From a virus, in IMG/VR virus record IMGVR_UViG_3300036398_002809, positions 1-23,228 of that record: a stretch of DNA of 23,228 nucleotides. One strand, 5' to 3'. The notes beneath the pieces were generated by a model. It ran no database searches. It saw nothing but the letters and a program-made list of their open reading frames with translations, and had not been told where the DNA came from. Both the position numbers and the translations under genes were made by a program. Positions 8,466 to 19,108 of this stretch are shown piece after piece (within the stretch, counting starts at the first letter, position 1; the number at the start of each line of letters is the position of its first letter).

Positions 8466-8702
8466 TCAAGCGTCAGGCTCGGCCCGCCGCTGGGCGAAGT
8501 GCCGCTCGCGGCACTCCCGCGCCCGCTCTGCGATCTCGTCGGGCGTCGGGTCCACGATCCGCTTGCGGTACTTGCATACCCGATCCGGTATACCGTGCTC
8601 GCGGCGCAGTTCGTGCAGCCGTTGCCGCCGGATGCCGAGGTGCGCTGCGATCACATCCGCAGGCACCCCGGCATCCCACATCTTGCGAAGCGTCTCTAGC
8701 AT
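8466..8702 (-). CDS. Small HTH DNA-binding protein with DPTP motif
   Basis: The product is 78 aa, starting at ATG 8702 in a one-base TGATG overlap with the clamp gene. Residues 1-36 read as a helix-turn-helix (MWDAGVPADVIAAHLGIRRQ, then RLHELRREHGIP). The second half carries DPTPDEIAERARECRERHF, a motif shared with the gene at 5830-6174. It is probably a small DNA-binding regulator in the replication operon. The binding site is unknown. Confidence 0.8.
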   Translation of the reverse strand: MLETLRKMWDAGVPADVIAAHLGIRRQRLHELRREHGIPDRVCKYRKRIVDPTPDEIAERARECRERHFAQRRAEPDA

Positions 8703-9811
8703 CAGTCCTTCGCCAACGGCATGACCACGCCGGTGCAGTCGCCGCACCGGAACACCACCGCGCTCTGAGCGTCCACCGCCTCGACCTCGACGGGCTCGGC
8801 CTCGTCCACGCCCCGCAGGAACTCGACCACGAAGCCGGGGTCGAGCGCCACGCTCGCCGTCTGGCCCGCTTCCAGCAGACCGCACGTCACGCTCGACTGC
8901 CCCGCCTCGGCACTCTGCGCCGTCAGGTGGATGCCGTTCTCCACGAAGGCGAACGTCACGCCCTTCGACTGCTCACTCGTCACGATGGCCGCCTGCCGCG
9001 TCGCCGCCAGGAGCTCGGCCCCGTTCACGAGCGACGCCTTCGCATCCCGCTCGGGGATCACGTCACGCCACCGGGGGAAGCGGCCCTCGACGAGCCGGGC
9101 CGTCACCACCGTGCCGTCGATGGTCGCCACCACCTCGCGGTCGGTGGCCTCCAGCTGCACCGCCCCCTCGCTGTGCGAGGCGATGCTGCTGATGGTCAGG
9201 ATCGCACGCGCCGGGATCAGCGTCGTGGAGTCGTCCACCGCCTGGTCCACCTCGATGCCGTAGGACGAGAGCCGCCGCCCGTCCGTGCCCACCAGCGTCA
9301 CCGTGCCATCCTTCACCTCGACGAGCACCGCCCCGAGGGCGAACCGGCTCGAATCGGTGTCCGTCGCGTAGGCCACCGCCTTCACGGCCCGCACGAACTG
9401 GTCGGCCGGGATCCGGCAGATGGGCTTCACGGTGGGGGTTTCCCACTGTGGGAATTCCGCCGCGTCCTCCGTGGGCAGCGTCCAAGTGCCGCCGCCAACG
9501 CTCACCGTGCAAGAGTTGCCGCTGGGGGCCAGCGTCACCTCGTCGCCCGACGCGGCCCCGAGGATCGCCTGCAAGCGGGCGAACGGGAGCAGCAGCGGGG
9601 CGTCGGTGTACGGCACCTCGGCCGACACCTGAAGTTCAAGATCACTCGCCGTGATCCCGCCGTTTGCCAGGAGCACGTTGTGCAAGATCGGCTTCGGGCT
9701 TCTGCTTGGAACAGCGGCCCGCACCGCAGCCAGGGCGGCACGGAGCGCTGCGATCGGTAGGGAGATGCCACTGGCGCGAGCCTTCCGTGGCTTCGTTGCT
9801 GTTGCGGTCAT
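8702..9811 (-). CDS. dnaN: DNA polymerase III beta sliding clamp (phage-encoded)
   Basis: This 369-aa protein has the three-domain layout of bacterial beta clamps, close to the usual length. Recognisable parts include LHNVLLANGGITASDLELQVSAE in domain 1 (here HNVLLA and ASDLELQ), SSRFALGAVLVEV and LVGTDGRRLSSYG in domain 2, and ARLVEGRFPRWRDVIP plus the closing VVMPLAKD in domain 3 (compare VMPMRL in DnaN). The clamp encircles DNA and tethers polymerase and other partners through a hydrophobic cleft. No clamp loader or polymerase is seen in the window, so it would need host partners or genes elsewhere. ATG 9811 is chosen because an AGGA site precedes it and MTATATKP is a natural N-terminus. 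Confidence 0.93.
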   Translation of the reverse strand: MTATATKPRKARASGISLPIAALRAALAAVRAAVPSRSPKPILHNVLLANGGITASDLELQVSAEVPYTDAPLLLPFARLQAILGAASGDEVTLAPSGNSCTVSVGGGTWTLPTEDAAEFPQWETPTVKPICRIPADQFVRAVKAVAYATDTDSSRFALGAVLVEVKDGTVTLVGTDGRRLSSYGIEVDQAVDDSTTLIPARAILTISSIASHSEGAVQLEATDREVVATIDGTVVTARLVEGRFPRWRDVIPERDAKASLVNGAELLAATRQAAIVTSEQSKGVTFAFVENGIHLTAQSAEAGQSSVTCGLLEAGQTASVALDPGFVVEFLRGVDEAEPVEVEAVDAQSAVVFRCGDCTGVVMPLAKD

Positions 9812-9917: not shown

Positions 9918-10159
9918 GCGGCACCGCCCTTCTGGCTCAACATCGACTTGATGTAGAGCGCCATCTGGTGGGCTTCGGATTCGGTCTTCTCCAAGGTGGC
10001 GGCGTTCTTCACGAGCCGCGCGTGCAGCTCGCGGATCGTGTCGGCCGCCCACTCCAGCCGCAGCCGGGAGTCGTCGTCGATTGCGTCCAGCCATGCGGCC
10101 TGGGCGCACAGATCCGCCACGATCAGCGGAGCAGGGGCGGGGTGCGGGTTCTCACTCAT
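9914..10159 (-). CDS. Small helical protein, unknown function
   Basis: The product is 81 aa. A Pro-rich N-terminus (MSENPHPAPAPLIV) is followed by long amphipathic helices (RLEWAADTIRELHARLVKNA and onward), probably a coiled coil. ATG 10159 has a GAGGTGG-like ribosome site and overlaps the preceding HTH gene by eight bases. No family recognised. It belongs to the replication operon by position. Confidence 0.72.
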   Translation of the reverse strand: MSENPHPAPAPLIVADLCAQAAWLDAIDDDSRLRLEWAADTIRELHARLVKNAATLEKTESEAHQMALYIKSMLSQKGGAA

Positions 10160-10376
10160 CGACCACCTCCACGCTGCGGGCCTTGTTCGGGTTGCGACGC
10201 AGGTAGCCCTTCTTTTCGAGGGCGTTCAGGTGGCACTGCACCCCGTTGGGCGAGGCGATGCCGTGGGCCGCTGCGATCTCTCGCACGGTCGGGGCCGCGA
10301 GACGCGAGTTCTCACGAATCCAGTCGAGAAGCTCACGCTGGCGGGCGGTCAGGGGCGGTCGGGCTGTTGCGGTCAT
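10152..10376 (-). CDS. Stand-alone LexA-type winged-helix DNA-binding domain
   Basis: The 74-aa product matches the N-terminal DNA-binding domain of LexA almost end to end: LTARQRELLDWIRENSR (9-25), TVREIAAAHGIASPNGVQCH (30-49) as the helix-turn-helix, and LEKKGYLRRNPNKARSVEV (53-71) as the wing. The S24 autoprotease and dimerisation domain of LexA is absent, and the stop is natural, in an eight-base overlap with the next gene. A domain of this kind could bind SOS-like operators without RecA-induced cleavage, or act at the replication origin encoded next door. ATG 10376 overlaps the replication gene stop (ATGA). Confidence 0.88.
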   Translation of the reverse strand: MTATARPPLTARQRELLDWIRENSRLAAPTVREIAAAHGIASPNGVQCHLNALEKKGYLRRNPNKARSVEVVDE

Positions 10377-12199: not shown

Positions 12200-13334
12200 T
12201 GGTGTTTTCCCCCCAAGCAACCCAGCCGGGCCGCGCCGATCGCGAGAACATTTCCAAGAACGGGCCAGGGCTGCATGACTCAACGAGCTCAAGGAATTCA
12301 GGCGGCTTGCTGCTATGCCCGGCCGGACCACGGTCGGCCTCGAAGACGGTGCCAACGTCCTTGCGCTTCAGCGGCTGGCTGCCCTTTACGCCAAACAGGA
12401 CGTGCTCGGTCTGGCCACGGAAGTAGTTGCCCATCCCGAAGTGCGGCTTAACCCATGTAATCGCCGTGATGTAGCGAAAGCCCCACGCCTCAAGCAGGCG
12501 AAAGCCCTTTGGCAGCGATCGGTTGGTGATCCACAGGTAGATGTGACAGTCGTCATCGGCCAAGCCGCCGACATCAAGTCGCTCAAGCTGCTCGATTGAC
12601 ATCGTGCTGTAGTCGGGGCGAGCGCGGCCGAGCTGGTCTTGGTCGCCTTCGTCGCCCCAGTCCCAAGGCGGATCGATGACGATCGTGGCGTACTTCGCCT
12701 GTGCGACAGCGGCGGCCTTCTCTGGCTCAGGAACGGCCGCAATCTTCTGGCGGTTCTCTTCGCGGCGAGCCTCTCGTGCCTGCTCTTTTAGTTCACGCTT
12801 TACTTGCAGGACGGGGCGGCCCTCCTCAACGGCCTTTTTCAGTTCAGGGGTTTTCTCAACCTCCTCGTAGAATTTTTCGGCACGTCGGACTGTCGCTGGT
12901 GACACTCCATGCTGAACGGCAAGCCGCTCCGCAGTCTTCAACTTGTGATCATTTTGATCACAAGTCAGGTCGTTTCTCTTGCCTTGGCTTTTTTCAAGCT
13001 TGTAGTCCAGCCCCAAAAGATACGTGAAAGAATCAGCGGTGAGGTTTCGCCGCCCGAGTTGATTCTTGACGATCCAATGGCGGGCCTCGTCGGTGCTCTT
13101 AAGCCGCATCTCGTGAACGTCAAACGGCAGTCCTAGCCGCGTGCAGATCTCGTAGCGGTTGTGGCCGTCGAGCAGCGTGAGCGTCCCTTTGCTGGCCCAC
13201 GCCACCAGCGGGTCGCGAGCACCGCCGTGCTCGACGATGTTCTCTTCGAGTTGCTGCCGCTCTTCGGCCGACAGCGGTGGGATCAGTGCGGCAAACTCGG
13301 CGTCGATCTGGATGTCTTCAAATACCTGCGGCAT
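12186..13334 (-). CDS. ParB-like/MT-A70 fusion, N6-adenine DNA methyltransferase
   Basis: The product is 382 aa with two parts. The N-terminal domain is ParB/Spo0J-like: LVAWASKGTLTLLDGHNRYE (43-62) with the LDGHNRYE box, and a helix-turn-helix at about 133-155 (KTAERLAVQHGVSPATVRR). The C-terminal part is MT-A70: DPPWDW at 221-226 as the catalytic/SAM motif, then YLWITNR, AITWVKPHFGMGNYFRGQTE and GHSSKPPEF. This fusion is known in phages and mobile elements and is predicted to methylate adenine in DNA. Its purpose may be protection from host restriction, gene regulation or origin control. A strong AAGGAGG site precedes ATG 13334. A 25-bp inverted repeat lies inside the gene at 12941-12965. 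Confidence 0.9.
   Translation of the reverse strand: MPQVFEDIQIDAEFAALIPPLSAEERQQLEENIVEHGGARDPLVAWASKGTLTLLDGHNRYEICTRLGLPFDVHEMRLKSTDEARHWIVKNQLGRRNLTADSFTYLLGLDYKLEKSQGKRNDLTCDQNDHKLKTAERLAVQHGVSPATVRRAEKFYEEVEKTPELKKAVEEGRPVLQVKRELKEQAREARREENRQKIAAVPEPEKAAAVAQAKYATIVIDPPWDWGDEGDQDQLGRARPDYSTMSIEQLERLDVGGLADDDCHIYLWITNRSLPKGFRLLEAWGFRYITAITWVKPHFGMGNYFRGQTEHVLFGVKGSQPLKRKDVGTVFEADRGPAGHSSKPPEFLELVESCSPGPFLEMFSRSARPGWVAWGENTNATK
12941..12965. repeat. Perfect 25-bp inverted repeat with two GATC sites inside the methyltransferase gene
   Basis: The arms ACTTGTGATCA (12941-12951) and TGATCACAAGT (12955-12965) are perfect over 11 bp around a TTT centre, and each contains TGATCA (a GATC site). 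The DNA codes for the linker between the ParB-like and MT-A70 parts of the methyltransferase. It may be a protein-binding or self-methylation site, or simply reflect the encoded residues. Confidence 0.75.
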
Positions 13335-13368
13335 AGATGCCTCCTTGCGTTGCGTGTCGAATCCGTTG

Positions 13369-13932
13369 CTACCGTGCCAAAACTTCCGCGCTTGGTTGGT
13401 CTTGCTCTGAAATCGGCGGCTGCGGAAAAGCCATCAAAAAGACCGTAACGAGATAGGCCAGCTTGCAGAGCGACTTCCCGGCATACTCGGGGTCGCGGGC
13501 CTTAACGGCGTTGATGTACCCGCTGGCCCAAACTGCCGCTTGGCACAACAGCAACGAAGGAAGCAGGCCACAGCCGTTCTCAGGCGGCACGTTTGCCCAG
13601 CCTGTCGGCTGAATCCAATCCTTGCCCGTGCCAAGTGACGAAAGTGCGCGGTCAAACACGGCCAGCGCAGGCCATCCGATTTCTCGGTAGGCAGTTGCCG
13701 AAAGCAGTTGTCGGCACCGCTGCTTGGTTTGCATGGCAGTCAACGCGTCATGCGGGTCAATAAGAAAGTTCGCGTCTGGCGTTGGAAGGCCGTCAAAAAA
13801 CTTTTGCTCGGCGTCCTCAAACCAGTTGGCTTCCTCAATGGTGATGCTGGAAATGTGATCGGTTGCCTTGGCAGACTCCTCGTCCGACACGCAAAGCAGT
13901 CGCAAAACTTCTTGGGCAAACTGTCGATCCAT
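13369..13932 (-). CDS. Unknown early phage protein
   Basis: The product is 187 aa, with no known domain recognised. It is acidic in its first half (VSDEESAKATDHISSITIEE) and has a hydrophobic, partly amphipathic C-terminal third (LCKLAYLVTVFLMAFPQ), which may be one membrane span. ATG 13932 is preferred because AGGAGG lies a few bases upstream; the frame is open for another 14 codons but without a better site. The codon use looks somewhat less GC-extreme than the structural genes, by eye. It follows a gene of unknown function and precedes the methyltransferase gene in the same direction. Confidence 0.72.
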   Translation of the reverse strand: MDRQFAQEVLRLLCVSDEESAKATDHISSITIEEANWFEDAEQKFFDGLPTPDANFLIDPHDALTAMQTKQRCRQLLSATAYREIGWPALAVFDRALSSLGTGKDWIQPTGWANVPPENGCGLLPSLLLCQAAVWASGYINAVKARDPEYAGKSLCKLAYLVTVFLMAFPQPPISEQDQPSAEVLAR

Positions 13933-13983
13933 CGCTTCGTCCTCCTGTTGATTTGGCCGCGTGACGTGCGGCATCCGGTCGAG

Positions 13984-14136
13984 TCACTGGCCGGGAGTTT
14001 TTTTGTTTGGGCCAGCCTCGGCTGCGGTGGATTTACGCGTCTCCCGCTTCGCCACCGCTGCCCTCGTGCGGGCTTCCCCCTGCGGCTGGGGCTGTTTCTT
14101 CTTTCGCATCTGCGTCCAACTGTCGTGCCACGCCAT
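13984..14136 (-). CDS. Possible 50-aa basic protein (tentative)
   Basis: This is a short frame from ATG 14136 to TGA 13984, encoding a very basic peptide (SWTQMRKKKQPQPQGEARTR, then AVAKRETRKSTAAEAG). Its first two thirds overlap the end of the neighbouring gene in another frame, and no convincing ribosome site was found. It may be a real small nucleic-acid-binding protein or just an open frame in GC-rich DNA. It is listed because otherwise only about 50 bases are left for it between the flanking genes. Confidence 0.3.
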   Translation of the reverse strand: MAWHDSWTQMRKKKQPQPQGEARTRAAVAKRETRKSTAAEAGPNKKTPGQ

Positions 14137-14455
14137 CGTTGTGTTCCTCAGGTGTTGCTTTGCTTGCGTGTCTCACGGCGGCGCGAGCGCCGCCCCAGAC
14201 GTTGACGATCACGGCGTCGGTCAGTTGCCCGCGCTCTGCGAGCACCTGGTCGAGCCCCACGAGTGCCTTGTAGAGCTCCCACCCAGCCGCCCTCGCCTGC
14301 TCGGGAGTGAGCGTCGCCATCGGCATCGGCTGGAAGCCGCCGCTGCGAACCCGTGAAGGCATCCGAATCGGCGGACGATCCTTCATGCGGATGTCCGACT
14401 CCTCGCGGCGAGCCTCCTCTTCGAGGTAGGCGAAGGTGGTGATGGGCTGGGTCAC
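14033..14455 (-). CDS. Small phage protein downstream of RecT, unknown function
   Basis: The product is 140 aa, starting with GTG at 14455 in a GTGA overlap with the recT stop, which makes translational coupling likely. It has a basic N-terminal third (RREESDIRMKDRPPIRMPSR), a helical middle (LTPEQARAAGWELYKALVGL) and an acidic, Ala/Gly-rich, probably disordered tail. Phage recT genes are often followed by a partner gene (single-strand-binding protein or exonuclease), but nothing here resembles either; it may be an accessory factor. Confidence 0.72.
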   Translation of the reverse strand: MTQPITTFAYLEEEARREESDIRMKDRPPIRMPSRVRSGGFQPMPMATLTPEQARAAGWELYKALVGLDQVLAERGQLTDAVIVNVWGGARAAVRHASKATPEEHNDGVARQLDADAKEETAPAAGGSPHEGSGGEAGDA

Positions 14456-15255
14456 GACTGTGCCTCCGCCATGAGTGCGTCGAGCTTCGCGTGGATGGCC
14501 GAGCAGATTTCCTTGTGCTCGTCCTCGGTGAACGTGCCGTCGCCCAGCCGCTCGTCGGCGGTCGTCCGCAGGGCTTCGAGCCGGTCGATCGTGGTCGCCC
14601 GGCTGACGGCCGCACGGGCCTTCTCAATCGCTGACGGGGCCAAGGCGACCTGCACGGCGGCAGGCACCGGCGTGTCGAACTTGGGCCGCACCTGCACCGG
14701 CTCGCGGGCGGGTTCGGCCTGCGGGTAGTCCTGGGCCTCCTCTGCCGTGATGAGGCCACGCAGGGCGTCTGCAAAGGCGTTGCGAAGGGCAAAGCCACGA
14801 GCACGCAGGGCCAGCATCCGCTCGGGGTATTGGGTCCACGGGCCGCTCTTGCCAGCCAGCCCGGCCCGCTTGGCGTCGGCCATCGAAAACCGGCTGATCG
14901 TCGGAGCCGGGTAGCCGCGACGCTTGGCCTCGCACACGGCGGTCAGGTTGTCGCCCTGGCCCTCGGTGTATTCCTTGACGTATTCGCAGACGGGGCTGCT
15001 CTGCACCAAGGCCAGGGCAGCGTCGCCCCAGATCGTGGGCCTGCCGTTGATGACGGCGATGCTCTGAAGCGATTGCATCGGGCTCAAGCCGACTTCGCTC
15101 CCGTGCTGGATGGCCAGCATGCAGGACTCTGGCTTGCCCCTGAAATCCTTGGGGGCGAACTCTGACGCCGCCACCATCTTCGAGAAGCGGAAGGCGTCGT
15201 CGAACGATTGAAGGGCAAGTCCGCCTGCCCGCTGCGTTGAAATCTCCGTGCTCAT
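14452..15255 (-). CDS. recT: RecT-family single-strand annealing protein
   Basis: The 267-aa product has RecT size and recognisable core segments: FRFSKMVAASEFAPKDFRGK (32-51), HGSEVGLSPMQSLQSIAVIN (about 60-79) followed by GRPTIWGDAAL, then the segment with SGPWTQYPERMLALRARGFA. RecT anneals complementary single strands and promotes strand invasion in phage recombination. The C-terminal quarter is helical and less conserved. ATG 15255 is supported by a purine-rich site (AAAGGGACGCGAAAG). RecT is often paired with an exonuclease; the PD-(D/E)XK-like gene at 11636-12199 is the only candidate in the window. Confidence 0.88.
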   Translation of the reverse strand: MSTEISTQRAGGLALQSFDDAFRFSKMVAASEFAPKDFRGKPESCMLAIQHGSEVGLSPMQSLQSIAVINGRPTIWGDAALALVQSSPVCEYVKEYTEGQGDNLTAVCEAKRRGYPAPTISRFSMADAKRAGLAGKSGPWTQYPERMLALRARGFALRNAFADALRGLITAEEAQDYPQAEPAREPVQVRPKFDTPVPAAVQVALAPSAIEKARAAVSRATTIDRLEALRTTADERLGDGTFTEDEHKEICSAIHAKLDALMAEAQS

Positions 15256-15332
15256 CTTTCGCGTCCCTTTCTGCGTGATGTGAAAACCGGCTCCGCGTCC
15301 TGCCTTGCCGGTCGTTTCCCTTCCGTGGCGTA

Positions 15333-15347
15333 CCCGGCTCCGCCGGG
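15333..15347 (-). other. GC-rich hairpin in the leader of recT
   Basis: A perfect 6-bp stem (CCCGGC/GCCGGG) with a 3-base loop lies between the small gene at 15357-15581 and recT. No run of T follows on the minus strand, so it is not a canonical intrinsic terminator. It could be a partial terminator or an attenuator that limits readthrough into recT. The block CCGGCTCCGC is also found about 48 bases away in the same gap, giving a short direct repeat. Confidence 0.35.
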
Positions 15348-15356
15348 CTCCGTGTT

Positions 15357-15581
15357 TCAGTGCGTGATGTCGTGAACGCTGACGGCCAGCCATGCGCCGC
15401 CCACGTCCACCGTGAGGCGGTCGCCCTCGACCCACTCGACCCGGCCCTGCCACCGGCGGCCTGCGGTGCAGCCGCTCACGAAGTCGCCCTCGGCGGGCAG
15501 GGTCGCCGGGCTCGGGGTGTGGTCAGCCATCCCAGCGACGGCGGCCAAATACTCGTTGTGATGGGGGTCGGTACTGAACAT
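15357..15581 (-). CDS. Small early protein, unknown function
   Basis: The product is 74 aa. After a polar N-terminus (MFSTDPHHNEYLAAVAGMAD) it has a small beta-rich domain (EGDFVSGCTAGRRWQGRVEW, RLTVDVGGAWLAVSVHD) resembling an SH3- or OB-like barrel in rhythm. An AGGAG site lies 11 bases before ATG 15581, and a good promoter with TTGACA sits just upstream. The family is unknown. Confidence 0.72.
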   Translation of the reverse strand: MFSTDPHHNEYLAAVAGMADHTPSPATLPAEGDFVSGCTAGRRWQGRVEWVEGDRLTVDVGGAWLAVSVHDITH

Positions 15582-15611
15582 CTGTCTACTGGCTCCTTTG
15601 AGGGTGGCGAA

Positions 15612-15639
15612 AATGTATTGATGGGTGAACTTCTGTCAA
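15612..15639 (-). promoter_or_regulatory. Promoter P1 upstream of the 15357-15581 gene
   Basis: On the minus strand a perfect -35 box, TTGACA (15634-15639), is followed by a 16-bp spacer and a -10 box TACATT (15612-15617, four of six consensus bases). Transcription would begin near 15605, giving a short leader with AGGAG before ATG 15581. A copy of the shared 18-bp operator-like element lies just upstream, at 15646-15663. Confidence 0.65.
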
Positions 15640-15645
15640 GCGGCA

Positions 15646-15663
15646 TAGCGTCGGCGTTAGAAC
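15646..15663 (-). promoter_or_regulatory. Operator-like element, copy 1
   Basis: The minus strand reads GTTCTAACGCCGACGCTA, identical over 18 bases to the element at 16087-16104. The inner 14 bases TAACGCCGACGCTA form an imperfect dyad (five of seven base pairs). It lies just upstream of the -35 box of P1. Interpretation as a repressor or activator site is inference. Confidence 0.6.
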
Positions 15664-15667
15664 AAAA

Positions 15668-15811
15668 TCAAAAAAGAGACTTGGCTGCGGTCAGGATCAT
15701 GTCGATGGCGTCGTGGACAAAGCGGGCCAGCGGCGTGTCGTGGCCGAGGTCTTGGCCCAAGCGAACCAGCACGAGCGACTCCAGCGCCCGATCCCAGTTG
15801 ATGCGTTTCAT
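15668..15811 (-). CDS. Very small early protein (47 aa)
   Basis: A short frame runs from ATG 15811 to TGA 15668. The peptide (MKRINWDRALESLVLVRLGQ, then LARFVHDAIDMILTAAKSLF) is composed like a small helical protein, with no membrane span. It lies in the same direction between the neighbouring small genes in a stretch that otherwise has no gene. A weak purine-rich sequence precedes the ATG. Function unknown. Confidence 0.55.
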   Translation of the reverse strand: MKRINWDRALESLVLVRLGQDLGHDTPLARFVHDAIDMILTAAKSLF

Positions 15812-15890
15812 GCGTGCGTCCTTGCGAGTGTGAAATCGCCACCCATTTTGCAGCTGTCGGCGGGCTGGGTGGCCCCACCTTGAATCATTC

Positions 15891-16031
15891 CTAGCGGGCC
15901 TCGATCGTCACGCTCTGGTATCCGCAAGCCTTCAGAAGCTCGGCAGTACGGCGAGCCGCCTCTTCCGTCTCGCGAACCATCTGGCCGTCGCTGCAATTGT
16001 TGTCGTGGCTGGCGAAGGTGATCTTGAACAT
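15891..16031 (-). CDS. Very small early protein (46 aa)
   Basis: ATG 16031 follows a GGGAG site. The peptide (MFKITFASHDNNCSDGQMVR, then AELLKACGYQSVTIEAR) reads like a compact beta-alpha-beta domain. The frame is open to another Met at 16076, but promoter P2 would start transcription at about that base, so the internal start fits better. Function unknown. It is the first gene of the P2 transcript. Confidence 0.65.
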   Translation of the reverse strand: MFKITFASHDNNCSDGQMVRETEEAARRTAELLKACGYQSVTIEAR

Positions 16032-16082
16032 CGTTTCGTCTCCCAGTTGTCGGCCGCGAGTCTCACTTGCTCGCATGGCCCT

Positions 16083-16110
16083 ATTGTAGCGTCGGCGTTA
16101 GAACTAGCAA
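16083..16110 (-). promoter_or_regulatory. Promoter P2 upstream of the 15891-16031 gene
   Basis: On the minus strand the -35 box TTGCTA (16105-16110) and the -10 box TACAAT (16083-16088) are separated by 16 bp. The shared operator-like element (16087-16104) fills the spacer, and its last two bases are the first two of the -10 box. A protein bound there would block RNA polymerase. Confidence 0.65.
16087..16104 (-). promoter_or_regulatory. Operator-like element, copy 2
   Basis: An exact 18-bp copy of the element at 15646-15663, here filling the spacer of promoter P2. The inner dyad TAACGCCGACGCTA begins four bases after the -35 box. Confidence 0.6.
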
Positions 16111-16140
16111 GGGGTGAGAAATTATTTTTTTCGACCCGGT

Positions 16141-16172
16141 TTTTCCCGTGAAAATCGCTAGTTTCGGGAAAA
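16141..16172. repeat. Inverted repeat at the end of the HTH gene
   Basis: Arms TTTTCCCG (16141-16148) and CGGGAAAA (16165-16172) are perfect over 8 bp with a 16-base loop. The repeat spans the stop codon of the HTH gene at 16158. A run of seven T on the plus strand lies just before it, at about 16125-16131, so it does not form a classical terminator for the minus strand. It could be a weak terminator, an mRNA-stabilising hairpin or a protein site. Confidence 0.4.
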
Positions 16173-16397
16173 CTTGCCAGGACGGCCGCCGGTCCCCCGG
16201 TCCCGCTTGGCGAATCGGAGCACCTCGGCCTCGTCAAAAACGAGGGCGGTAGGGGCGGCGTGCCACGAGTCCAGCCCGCCTTTGTCGCCCCCGAGCAGGG
16301 CCAGCTGGCGCACCCTCCCCATTGAGACGTTGAGGATCTTCGCCGCCTCGGCTGTGGAAATCAGCTTTTTCCCGGTCGGGAGTGCCACGGTAATCAT
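16158..16397 (-). CDS. Small HTH regulator (MerR/excisionase-like)
   Basis: The product is 79 aa. The motif LISTAEAAKILNVSMGRVRQ (12-31) is a helix-turn-helix of the MerR/excisionase superfamily, followed by a wing-like region and LVFDEAEVLRFAKR (52-65), and a basic tail (DRGTGGRPGKFSRN). Such proteins act as phage excisionases (directing integrase) or as repressors. It is divergent from the integrase. The best promoter places the transcription start within a few bases of ATG 16397, so the mRNA may be leaderless. The promoter contains a copy of the shared dyad, which suggests autoregulation if this protein binds it. Confidence 0.82.
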   Translation of the reverse strand: MITVALPTGKKLISTAEAAKILNVSMGRVRQLALLGGDKGGLDSWHAAPTALVFDEAEVLRFAKRDRGTGGRPGKFSRN

Positions 16398-16405
16398 GCC
16401 CTTCA

Positions 16406-16433
16406 ATACTAACGCCGTGGCAAGCGGTGTCAA
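16406..16433 (-). promoter_or_regulatory. Promoter P3 for the HTH gene
   Basis: Minus strand: a perfect -35 box TTGACA (16428-16433), a 16-bp spacer and a -10 box TAGTAT (16406-16411, four of six). The expected transcription start lies at about 16399, directly before ATG 16397. An element resembling the shared dyad occupies 16410-16423, in the same place relative to the -10 box as in P2. Confidence 0.65.
16410..16423. promoter_or_regulatory. Operator-like element, copy 3 (degenerate, inverted)
   Basis: The plus strand reads TAACGCCGTGGCAA, matching 11 of 14 bases of the dyad in copies 1 and 2 but in the opposite orientation. Its end overlaps the first two bases of the P3 -10 box, exactly as copy 2 does in P2. 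Confidence 0.5.
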
Positions 16434-16466
16434 AGGGGCGCGATCCGGTTGCCAGCATCGCCTTTC

Positions 16467-16485
16467 CCGCCCGATAATCGGGCGG
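16467..16485. repeat. Perfect 9-bp inverted repeat between the HTH and integrase promoters
   Basis: CCGCCCGAT and ATCGGGCGG flank a single A at 16476. It sits in the 173-bp gap between the divergent HTH and integrase genes, upstream of P3 and of the integrase -10 box. It looks like a dimeric-protein operator rather than a terminator, since no T run follows on either strand and the one-base loop is too small for a good RNA hairpin. The protein that binds it is not known. Confidence 0.55.
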
Positions 16486-16527
16486 TGAACAAGGCATCCA
16501 GCGGAGGGCACTCCCGCTGAAGTTTTG

Positions 16528-16533
16528 TATACT
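16528..16533 (+). promoter_or_regulatory. Possible -10 box for the integrase
   Basis: TATACT (five of six) lies 38 bases before the integrase start. No -35 box was found at 16-18 bp distance, so this promoter may need an activator. A short imperfect hairpin-like sequence (GCGGAGGGCACTCCCGC, 16501-16517) lies just upstream. Confidence 0.4.
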
Positions 16534-16570
16534 AGTGACCGAAGGACCACGGAAAGCGAAAGGAAAGGCC

Positions 16571-17458
16571 ATGAAACTGCGAGAGTTCCTGCACGAAAGA
16601 TATGCGATCCTCCACAATTTGAAAGCCCGCAGCGTCGAGCTCTACACGTTCTCGATCGACCGCTTCGGCGACTTCCTCGAACGCGAGCCGGAACTGTCTG
16701 ACTTAGAGGATCTGACGGTATCCAAGTTCCTGCGGTGGCGGGCGGTCACGCCACACAAGGGCAAGATCGCACGCCCGGCATCCGTGGCAAAGGACAAGTG
16801 CCAACTGCTCGGGCTGTGGAACGCAGCCGCACGCAAGCGGCTGGTGGAGCACTTCCCCGATCTGGCCCGCAATATCGTCCGCGTTCCCCACCGACCGCCC
16901 CAGGCGTACACGGTGGAAGAGATCAGCCGCATGGTGCGGGTGGCCAAAACCCGGCAGGGGATGGTCGGCCCGGTCCCGGCCGCGTGGGTTTGGCCGACGC
17001 TCTTGATGTCGTGCTACTTCACCGGGGAGCGCATCGGCAGCCACCTCGAAGTACGCTGGCAGCAGATCGACTCCACCCGCCGCACGGTCACGTTTCTCTC
17101 GGAACACCGCAAGGGGCTCGGGCGCACGATTACGCGGGCGATCACGCCGCAACTGGTTCAGATGCTGGACACGGCCCGTCGCGGCCCTGACGAGCTTGTA
17201 TGGCCTTGGCTGCAACACCGCGAGATCGGCTCGCTGTGGCCACGGATTCGGGACATATGCCTAGCGGCAGGCGTAACGCCGAAGGGCTTCCACGCCATCC
17301 GCAAGGCGGCCGGTTCCTATGTCAAAGCTGCTGGCGGCGATGCCACGGAGTTCCTGACGCACGCGGACGGGCGAACGACCAAGGACCACTACCTCGACCC
17401 GAAGATCGTGGGCGAGGCGTCGGCCTTGGATTTCCTGCCGCCGCTCGACATCAACTGA
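16571..17458 (+). CDS. int: Tyrosine recombinase / phage integrase
   Basis: This 295-aa protein is the only plus-strand gene. Catalytic residues are all present: Arg154 in TGERIGSHL, Lys181 in EHRKGLGRT, His241 and Arg244 in FHAIRKAAG, His264 in LTHADGRTT, and the nucleophile Tyr274 in KDHYLDP. The N-terminal 100 residues form a SAM-like core-binding domain (LREFLHERYAILHNLKAR). It would insert the phage into the host chromosome by site-specific recombination. ATG 16571 is chosen because AGGAAAGG lies immediately upstream; the frame opens 12 codons earlier without a site. An attP would be expected close by, but no core could be identified without the host junction. Confidence 0.95.
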   Translation: MKLREFLHERYAILHNLKARSVELYTFSIDRFGDFLEREPELSDLEDLTVSKFLRWRAVTPHKGKIARPASVAKDKCQLLGLWNAAARKRLVEHFPDLARNIVRVPHRPPQAYTVEEISRMVRVAKTRQGMVGPVPAAWVWPTLLMSCYFTGERIGSHLEVRWQQIDSTRRTVTFLSEHRKGLGRTITRAITPQLVQMLDTARRGPDELVWPWLQHREIGSLWPRIRDICLAAGVTPKGFHAIRKAAGSYVKAAGGDATEFLTHADGRTTKDHYLDPKIVGEASALDFLPPLDIN

Positions 17459-17472
17459 ACCGGGCTGACGGG

Positions 17473-17508
17473 GAGGCGGCAGGGAAAGGAAGGAAAACCT
17501 GCCGCCTC
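17473..17508. terminator. Hairpin between the integrase and the convergent late genes
   Basis: Perfect 11-bp arms GAGGCGGCAGG (17473-17483) and CCTGCCGCCTC (17498-17508) enclose a purine-rich 14-base loop. It lies 14 bases after the integrase stop and 15 bases after the end of the last minus-strand late gene. The position suggests a bidirectional terminator, but no T tract follows on either strand, so it may act only as a pause/stability hairpin or be a recombination-related site. Confidence 0.5.
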
Positions 17509-17523
17509 AACCCGCCGCCCGGC

Positions 17524-17724
17524 TCATTGTTCCGCTGGCCTCGGCAAGTTCTCGCGCGCCGCGATCATCGCCAGCAGCCGCTCGCGTTCTTCGAGCAGGC
17601 GGCCGATCATCCTGGCCGCCGTGCCGTTGGTGGCCGTCCACGAGTTGCTCGGCCCGTGGCGTCCCACCCACAGCCACGCTTCCTGCGCCTCGTCTTCGGA
17701 GTAGGGCACGCGGCGGTCGGTCAC
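17524..17724 (-). CDS. Small phage protein, unknown function
   Basis: The product is 66 aa, starting with GTG at 17724 in a GTGA overlap with the preceding gene. It is polar and helical (EDEAQEAWLWVGRHGP, then ARMIGRLLEERERLLAMIAA), with a likely coiled-coil second half. It is the last gene of the right-hand block. No family recognised. Confidence 0.72.
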   Translation of the reverse strand: MTDRRVPYSEDEAQEAWLWVGRHGPSNSWTATNGTAARMIGRLLEERERLLAMIAARENLPRPAEQ

Positions 17725-18071
17725 TCGACGCTCTCCCGGTACAGCACCAGGGCAATGATTGAATACGCCGCAAGGTCCAGCAGCGTGTCTTCCACGCCGT
17801 CAAATTCCACCTCGCCCCGGCGAAAGAACGACCGCAGCCGGTGCATCTTGTCGCTCATTCGCAGCACGCAGCCAGCGTAGGCGGGCACGTTGATGACATC
17901 GGCCGAGTTGCGAATGTTGCTCAGAGCATCATCGTCCTGCCCGTAGTCTTTTGTCTTCCGAAGGTGCAGCGTGCGAATCTCGTCGAGGATGTCGAGAAAC
18001 TCGCGCGAGCCGGGCCGCAATCCCTCTCGCATCACGCCATCGCCATTGAGTCGGTCGGCCACGTCAATCAT
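17721..18071 (-). CDS. All-alpha NTP pyrophosphohydrolase-like protein (DUF1599/Nmad1 type)
   Basis: The product is 116 aa. It resembles the DUF1599 / nucleotide-modification-associated family: LRKTKDYGQDDDALSNI (37-53) with the KxxDYG signature, LRMSDKMHRLRSFF (70-83), and GVEDTLLDLAAYSIIALVLY (92-111), where Glu94, Asp95 and Asp99 are likely metal ligands as in MazG/dUTPase-like enzymes. Such proteins are thought to hydrolyse or sense modified or toxic nucleotides. ATG 18071 has an ATGA overlap with the metallophosphoesterase gene. Together the two could form a nucleotide-cleaning pair. The substrate is unknown. Confidence 0.82.
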   Translation of the reverse strand: MIDVADRLNGDGVMREGLRPGSREFLDILDEIRTLHLRKTKDYGQDDDALSNIRNSADVINVPAYAGCVLRMSDKMHRLRSFFRRGEVEFDGVEDTLLDLAAYSIIALVLYRESVE

Positions 18072-19108
18072 TCCTTTCCCTTTCGCAAATCTCGGTCGCA
18101 GAACAATGGGTACGCTCGCGTCACTTCATTGCGCCGGTGATCGACAATGGCCATGCCTTGACATGGCCGCTCAGGAGAAGCGACCCGATCAGCGTATGGG
18201 GAATGTCCAATGACCGATCCGTTCGCAACGTATCTCGCACCACGCAGCCAGCCCCACGAGTGGTAGTGGCCGAAGATCGTCAGGTCTGCTTTGCGGCCAG
18301 CGTCCCATCGGGCGATTGCTTTGCTCGCTGGCAGCGCGAGACCGTAGACGCCCCCAGCGAACCGAATTGAGTGACCATGGGTCGTGCGAACGAGGAACCC
18401 ATCAAGGTTGACGTAGCCCAGGTGCCCCTCGGCAATCTGCCACTGCACGTTCTTGTTTCGCTCTTCGCGGGCGAGCGTGAAGTACATCAACTGCTCCCAC
18501 GAATGATCGAGTTCTGTTGCGACCCTCGGCTTGCCCTCGTTGCTGCGGCCGTGGTTGCCTGCGTTCGTGCAGATGACCACCTGCTCGGCGTGCTTGGCCA
18601 CGCTGTCGATGAGCCCGCGCAGCCGCTCGGCAATCCAGCGGGTGGCGTTCATCGGCGAGAGCTGTGCCACCTCTACGCAGTCGGGGTGGATGTGCCCCGT
18701 GATGAAGTCGCCGCCCAACCAGATGAGCACGCGGCGAACGTCCGCCTGGTTTCGTTCGTGTTCAAGGCAGTCGAGGAATCGCTCCTCTAACTCGGCGAGC
18801 CGCTTCTGACACACTTCGAGCGAGTAGTCGTTTTCGCCGTTCACGGTTTCAGGCAGCACCCGCTCTTCGGCGTGAACGTCCGACAGCATGAGAATCGCCG
18901 TGGCGTCGTGCCGCACCCGCTTGCGGCCCTTGGTGCCTTTGTTCAAGGCCACCGGCTTGAGGCTCGTCAGCGAGGCCAAGCCGTTCGCCCGTTCCCGCTC
19001 CTTGTCGATCTGGGCGAGCGCCGCCTTATACCGGTTCCGGTATGAAGCCACCTCGGCCCGCAGCCGGGCCAGTTCGGCGTCGGCCGCCAGCTGCGACGCC
19101 TGCTCCAT
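18068..19108 (-). CDS. Calcineurin-like metallophosphoesterase
   Basis: The product is 346 aa with the full metal-binding set: LSDVHAEE (Asp77, His79), LGGDFITGHIH (Asp134), NAGNHGRS (Asn185, His186), TTHGHS (His244, His246) and FGHYHSWG (His281, His283). It has an N-terminal helical region (residues 1-50) that is likely a coiled coil. Phage members of this group cleave phosphodiesters or phosphomonoesters in nucleotides or nucleic acid, and some counter host nucleotide-signalling defences; the substrate here is unknown. ATG 19108 is a plausible start; GTG 19117 is an alternative. The gene ends in an ATGA overlap with the NTP pyrophosphohydrolase-like gene. Confidence 0.88.
   Translation of the reverse strand: MEQASQLAADAELARLRAEVASYRNRYKAALAQIDKERERANGLASLTSLKPVALNKGTKGRKRVRHDATAILMLSDVHAEERVLPETVNGENDYSLEVCQKRLAELEERFLDCLEHERNQADVRRVLIWLGGDFITGHIHPDCVEVAQLSPMNATRWIAERLRGLIDSVAKHAEQVVICTNAGNHGRSNEGKPRVATELDHSWEQLMYFTLAREERNKNVQWQIAEGHLGYVNLDGFLVRTTHGHSIRFAGGVYGLALPASKAIARWDAGRKADLTIFGHYHSWGWLRGARYVANGSVIGHSPYADRVASPERPCQGMAIVDHRRNEVTRAYPLFCDRDLRKGKE

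Follow-up and report, generated by a model that had tools for sequence, protein, structure and literature searches.

A conserved near-palindrome in the early promoters of a phage family, with the small winged-HTH protein HTH79 as its candidate binder

The locus considered here, in which one short element recurs at several early promoters of a virus, raises the question of what the element is for and which protein binds it. The DNA is the 23,228-base IMG/VR virus record IMGVR_UViG_3300036398_002809 (positions 1 to 23,228), and we refer to this whole stretch, at its full length, as the window. A tyrosine integrase gene (16571-17458, + strand) is divergent from the gene of HTH79 (16158-16397, - strand), a 79-aa winged-HTH protein with a predicted Xis/BldC-like fold and a GRP-rich tail, which is our candidate for the operator binder. 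The HTH79 gene has the same orientation as the early operon, and leftward of it are small ORFs and genes for a RecT-like protein, an MT-A70-type methyltransferase and a LexA-type DNA-binding-domain protein, with further genes beyond. The first ORF behind promoter P2 encodes 46 aa (15891-16031, - strand) and differs among relatives, and the first ORF behind promoter P1 encodes 74 aa (15357-15581, - strand), with the RecT-like annealing protein gene of the P1 operon next (14452-15255, - strand). Farther leftward we found LexA74 (10152-10376, - strand), a 74-aa protein made up of a LexA DNA-binding domain only, and a phage-encoded DNA polymerase III sliding clamp (beta subunit; 8702-9808, - strand). 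Searches of 50,697 phage and 72,556 plasmid records gave no match to HTH79; the integrase had one phage match (28.6%) and none among plasmid records. The clamp protein matched 302 plasmid records, all at less than 60% identity, and plasmid dnaN resembled it at 25-29% among the matches listed. At the DNA level, positions 15010-15119 within the RecT-like gene showed 73% identity over 109 bp to 20 Salinibacter ruber phage records.

A sequence-only reading of the window had described two exact 18-bp copies of an element containing a 14-bp imperfect dyad, a degenerate inverted copy of it, and three promoters with 16-bp spacers, all of which we recovered. The 18-bp core GTTCTAACGCCGACGCTA is present on the - strand at P2 (16087-16104) and again, identically, at P1 (15646-15663), and its 14-mer is an imperfect dyad with five of seven pairs complementary. 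The inverted copy agrees at 11 of 14 bases (TAACGCCGTGGCAA at 16410-16423, three mismatches) and is part of a degenerate operator at P3 that reads ATACTAACGCCGTGGCAA on the + strand (16406-16423), of which only the half CTAACGCC is well conserved. The three promoters, all on the - strand, scored as sigma-70-like in a promoter scan: P1 (TTGACA-16-TACATT, 15639-15612), P2 (TTGCTA-16-TACAAT, 16110-16083) and P3, the promoter of the HTH79 gene (TTGACA-16-TAGTAT, 16433-16406), whose -10 box ends 8 nt before the ATG. As had been claimed, the element in P2 and P3 begins four bases past the -35 box and reaches into the -10 box by two bases; at P2 it fills the spacer and the first -10 bases. The position outside the promoter that had been given for P1 stood for the window, where the element ends 6 bp upstream of the -35 box of this promoter (P1b); many relatives have the first P1 site in a spacer too, that of an upstream promoter we call P1a. 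In the window P1a appears as a weak remnant around the P1 operator (TTGATT-18-TATGCC, 15642-15671, - strand), and its function there is putative.

How much of this could arise by chance differed between the copies. Four sigma-70-like sites with 16-bp spacers were found in 13000-18500 against a shuffle mean of 0.6, and by arithmetic an exact 18-bp repeat is expected about 0.01 times in 23 kb. A motif scan of the window returned six sites with at most three mismatches against a shuffle mean of 1.75 (two of 100 shuffles reached six), and those at 16873, 20413 and 21822 look like chance matches. The P3 copy scored 9.2 bits with a matrix made from P2 sites, and simulated windows hold several sites of at least 8 bits. 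On the evidence of the window by itself, the exact repeat reaches significance but the third copy does not.

We turned to relatives, which were collected by the HTH79 protein and not via the motif. Alignment A1, comprising 11 HTH79 relatives from motif-bearing loci, was used as the query for viral_contigs and led to 56 loci, which with the window made 49 distinct contexts. L098 and L099 proved to be unrelated MerR-like proteins without the element and were left out, and L052, L070, L080 and L096 end before P2, leaving 43 contexts for the P2 count, in which sites were located with regular expressions. The P2 spacer element was present in all 43, although some of their HTH proteins are as little as 55% identical to HTH79, and the P2 spacer was 16-18 bp in every context and 16-17 bp in 41 of the 43 (for nine spacers scored as 17 bp the -35 box was taken as CTTGCA, and with TTGCAC, shifted by one base, they come to 16). 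The 49 contexts include many close relatives of one another; after thinning to 32 with differing HTH proteins, the mean majority base was 0.94 in the element versus 0.45-0.68 in the flanks, the latter made up of 0.47 at -45 to -26, 0.68 at -25 to -6 (the A/T tract and -35 region), 0.58 at -5 to -1, 0.53 at +5 to +24 and 0.45 at +25 to +60. The element in its commonest form is the near-palindrome TTCTAACGCCGACGCTAGAA. Of 11 pairs, 8 are complementary in the commonest P2 site, GTTCTAACGCCGACGCTAGAAT, 7 in the P2 site of the window and 9 in that of L064 and L066. The P2 sites modestly exceeded column shuffles in dyad similarity (P 0.03) but not in direct-repeat similarity at 9-12 bp (P 0.60), and we dropped a direct-repeat reading of these sites on that ground.

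The P2 transcript carries a small hairpin in its 5' leader, at 16056-16074 (- strand), GCGAG ... CTCGC with a loop of about CAAGTGAGA, which is found in the same place in many relatives. Its arms appear to co-vary, with five of seven pairs changed on both sides among 18 leaders chosen from 42 for alignment, near-duplicates and leaders without the hairpin having been left out.

What makes the P3 copy credible is that its half-site recurs in relatives: CTAACGCC, with at most one mismatch, on the opposite strand and within 30 nt of the ATG, was found in 41 of the 46 contexts that have upstream sequence, versus 1.65% of random places. Among the others, L064, L066 and L083 have P3 dyads with altered halves, L095 has an exact half-site ahead of an earlier start codon, and L089 showed no P3 site where one was sought and no P1 site. 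P3 has a 16-bp spacer in 43 of the 46 contexts (L098 and L099 left out) and hexamers near consensus in most. The -10 box ends 6-8 nt before the ATG in 42 of 46, these being the contexts with a 16-bp-spacer promoter scoring at least 9/12, and because of this spacing the HTH79 mRNA made from P3 is probably leaderless. Behind HTH79, a further site of at least 13 bits (P1) was found within 1.7 kb in 41 of 43 contexts, a count that leaves out the unrelated L099; the site of L082 sits just past the 1.7 kb scanned. The P1 sites are tandem pairs 27-31 bp apart in 22 of the 41. In 27 of 41 the site lies 16-17 bp after a -35 box matching at least 5/6, and is therefore within a promoter spacer there too; in the window and its nearest relatives P1a has a weak -35 box (TTGATT, 18 bp), and P1b just downstream is the good promoter. 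Across the window and its relatives, one and the same element marks the promoter of the candidate regulator as well as early promoters, at places that overlap the site of RNA polymerase.

Searches that started from the motif led back to the same gene. The exact 18-mer occurred in 31 stretches from 30 IMG/VR contigs of viral_contigs, and the promoter form (the 18-mer with the -10 bases and degenerate positions) in 37 contigs; by comparison of contig names, all 30 and all 37 were also in the list fetched with HTH79. A reversed 18-mer, as control, occurred in four stretches of viral_contigs. In 18 long stretches that we scanned, sites of at least 20 bits were found only near the HTH79 gene. The element is conserved, and it is linked to the HTH79 gene beyond chance in both search directions, from motif to gene and from gene to motif. 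The linkage may come from common descent of one locus, as the integrase is also always near.

On this comparative evidence, the element is probably the operator of a switch specific to this phage family, with HTH79 as the candidate binder that represses the early promoters and its own gene. The sequence-only reading had pointed to a phage control switch, possibly with the small HTH protein of promoter P3 as its binder, and this idea gives the best fit to the conservation and the two-way linkage. HTH79, made from P3, would bind the near-palindrome in the P2 spacer and at P1, and would bind P3 via its one good half. Once bound, HTH79 would shut RNA polymerase out of P2 and P1, the early promoters, where its sites are strong, and at higher concentration it would also close P3, where its site is weak, giving negative autoregulation. 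Because the sites are strong at P2 and P1 and half-degenerate at P3, their relative strength suggests that rising HTH79 closes the early promoters first and its own promoter next.

In alignment A2, of 29 family members, the recognition segment MGRxRQ is invariant (29/29) and the tail is approximately TGRPxGGFKAN, a GRP-rich tail that appears AT-hook-like; no dimerisation domain was evident in HTH79. The operator core is nearly invariant, as is the recognition segment, and both recognition helix and operator are too constant to reveal co-variation. An AlphaFold2 model predicts a winged HTH of helix-helix-hairpin-helix arrangement (pLDDT 78.7, with residues 68-79 below 50). Among solved folds, those nearest to this model belong to BldC (Z 7.7, the highest), Pukovnik Xis (Z 6.9), RdfS (E 0.054, the best by Foldseek) and MerR proteins; the scores are weak to moderate and may reflect a common arrangement. 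HTH79 of the window matched Pfam HTH_17 with an E-value of 0.0015, and its family matches are below the Pfam cut-offs; phrog_66 ("excisionase and transcriptional regulator") matched 20 of the 29 members, at best 3.6e-6, and TIGR01764 one of 29. A PDB sequence search with the family profile gave one chance-level match.

We considered other binders and other functions for the element. HTH79 is the best candidate binder because the integrase is exchanged among records, two records (G026 and G027) are without a LexA-type match, and no CI-type match over the cut-off was found in 21 records. That the phage's own LexA74 binds the element, in the manner of truncated LexA homologues in other phages such as GIL01, we consider unlikely. 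LexA74 is a strong family match (Pfam LexA_DNA_bind, 1.6e-21), proteins of its type are found in 23 of 28 family records, and GIL01 gp6, a truncated LexA homologue, acts on a phage promoter (sections of PMC6182141); yet G026 and G027 keep their P1, P2 and P3 sites with no LexA-type match, though both, while extending over the place expected for its gene, are possibly fragments. G026 covers the sliding-clamp gene that is usually beside the LexA74 gene, whereas G027, with neither a clamp nor a RecT match, is the weaker case; in the other three records with no LexA-type match (G024, G029, G032) the expected place is beyond the contig end. A LexA-type protein would also be better suited by a different, LexA-like dyad, TGWAC-N4-GTWCA, seen near the integrase promoter and behind P1 in some relatives. 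This dyad lies near the integrase -10 box and behind P1 operators (e.g., L086, L075, L063, L077). Of the 49 contexts, 16 have it upstream of HTH79 and 12, the unrelated L099 among them, have it up to 1.7 kb behind that gene; the window itself lacks an exact match. Host LexA or the phage's own LexA-type protein may recognise this dyad, which is there in G027, a record that gave no LexA-type protein match.

It is likewise improbable that the sites are integrase arm or excisionase sites serving recombination and not transcription operators. They lie less than 1 kb from the integrase gene, and HTH79 resembles excisionases both in its phrog_66 matches and in the similarity of its model to the Xis and RdfS folds. 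Against this, the sites at P2 and P3 keep a fixed register with the -35 and -10 boxes, they are dyads and not direct repeats one turn apart, and the same element is accompanied by integrases ranging from 32% to 100% identity to that of the window. The integrase has been swapped (43% identity) even between records that share HTH79 and the elements exactly, e.g., in L050, and this exchange is what makes arm sites unlikely. In a combined role, HTH79 could also be an excisionase.

A host regulator could bind the element, with the phage borrowing a host box, and this we regard as very unlikely. Phages that use host LexA exist (GIL01; PMC6182141). In genome_contigs, covering 257 Gb and 84,980 species, the 18-mer with one two-fold degenerate position occurred in four stretches, below the approximately 15 cellular matches expected by arithmetic with equal base use. 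The sequence-only reading had named a motif equally frequent at random in the host genome as an outcome that would speak against it, and, as far as cellular genomes can show, this was not what we saw. The host-box reading was rejected because the motif is not above chance there, and as far as can be tested the element is a phage element; a host lineage, as yet unsequenced, may use the box. The family carries an integrase, yet in cellular genomes the 18-mer was confined to these four stretches, and no HTH79 relative was seen in the four matching genomes, in a search run without a positive control. The host lineage may be unsequenced, or prophages may be rare. The 14-mer was absent from the literature searched, where excisionase- and MerR-type repressors and planctomycete phages gave related systems only. 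Finally, it is highly improbable that HTH79 activates P2 and P3 in MerR fashion from between the -35 and -10 boxes, as the location of the element in the spacer and the MerR proteins among its structural neighbours might suggest, because spacers are 16 bp at P3 (43/46) and 16-17 bp at P2 (41/43) versus 19-20 bp in MerR promoters (excerpts of PMC5859096), HTH79 is too short to include an effector domain, and in most contexts P3 has hexamers close to consensus.

Returning to HTH79 as the repressor of the early promoters and of its own gene, we infer that it most likely binds and represses in the order given by site strength, as either a lysogenic repressor or a Cro/Cox/Apl-like early regulator. 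The same-direction layout and the Xis-like fold favour the role of an early regulator like Apl, Cox or Cro. The lack of another recognisable repressor favours a lysogeny-keeping role: in 21 family records, which may be incomplete, no HTH_3 match was over the cut-off (three records had sub-threshold matches) and no S24 peptidase was found. A bolder and tentative possibility, which we think doubtful, is that a widespread uncultured lineage has HTH79 as its only immunity repressor, which would combine an excisionase fold, an AT-hook-like tail, a leaderless mRNA and palindromic operators in promoter spacers, in place of direct-repeat sites for recombination, to keep lysogeny with no CI-type protein. 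The outcome is a candidate set of regulator and operators for a phage lineage in which we found no cultured member. If HTH79 is a master regulator, then excisionase-type proteins can act on palindromic operators as sequence-specific repressors of a switch, and this operator could serve to mark the family in metagenomes and to predict which phages are cross-immune.

In a lambda-type CI/Cro switch one regulator acts on a few operators in its own and early promoters, with a weaker site at its own promoter, and the lambda cI mRNA made from PRM is leaderless. The system proposed here would share operators in the regulator's own and early promoters, the weaker own site and, probably, the leaderless regulator mRNA; unlike in lambda, neither an HTH_3 match over the cut-off nor an S24 peptidase was found in 21 family records, and its regulator gene is directed as the early operon. 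The apl and cox genes are positioned near the integrase and the start of the early operon, and like apl the HTH79 gene is near both. Apl of coliphage 186 is an excisionase as well as a regulator of early promoters, and HTH79 resembles it as a small excisionase-type protein that is a candidate repressor of phage early promoters (sections of PMC7498355). Apl, however, is described there as using six-bp direct repeats spaced by one helix turn, to which it binds with low specificity and from which it spreads, whereas here a single specific near-palindrome is found in promoter spacers. BldC and RdfS, the HTH_17 winged-HTH proteins with the nearest solved folds to the HTH79 model, likewise use direct repeats or no consensus and form head-to-tail oligomers, in contrast to the conserved dyad here (excerpts of PMC5859096 and PMC11963761), and in the portions of these three sources direct repeats or no consensus is mostly what excisionase- and BldC-type proteins bind (PMC7498355, PMC5859096, PMC11963761). 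RdfS represses its own promoter via a weaker site and regulates its integrase (excerpts of PMC11963761). The LexA/gp7/gp6 control of GIL01 offers a parallel, in that this phage too encodes a truncated LexA homologue and, as seems to be so here, lacks a dedicated repressor of CI type (PMC6182141); unlike in GIL01, our operator differs from a LexA-type box, and two records with no LexA-type match, possibly fragments, retain it. The repressor of cluster A mycobacteriophages with its stoperators is a further likeness, in its unusual repressor design and its repeated sites, but stoperators are asymmetric and genome-wide (excerpts of PMC9283540), whereas the element here is near-palindromic and, in the stretches scanned, found in the control region only.
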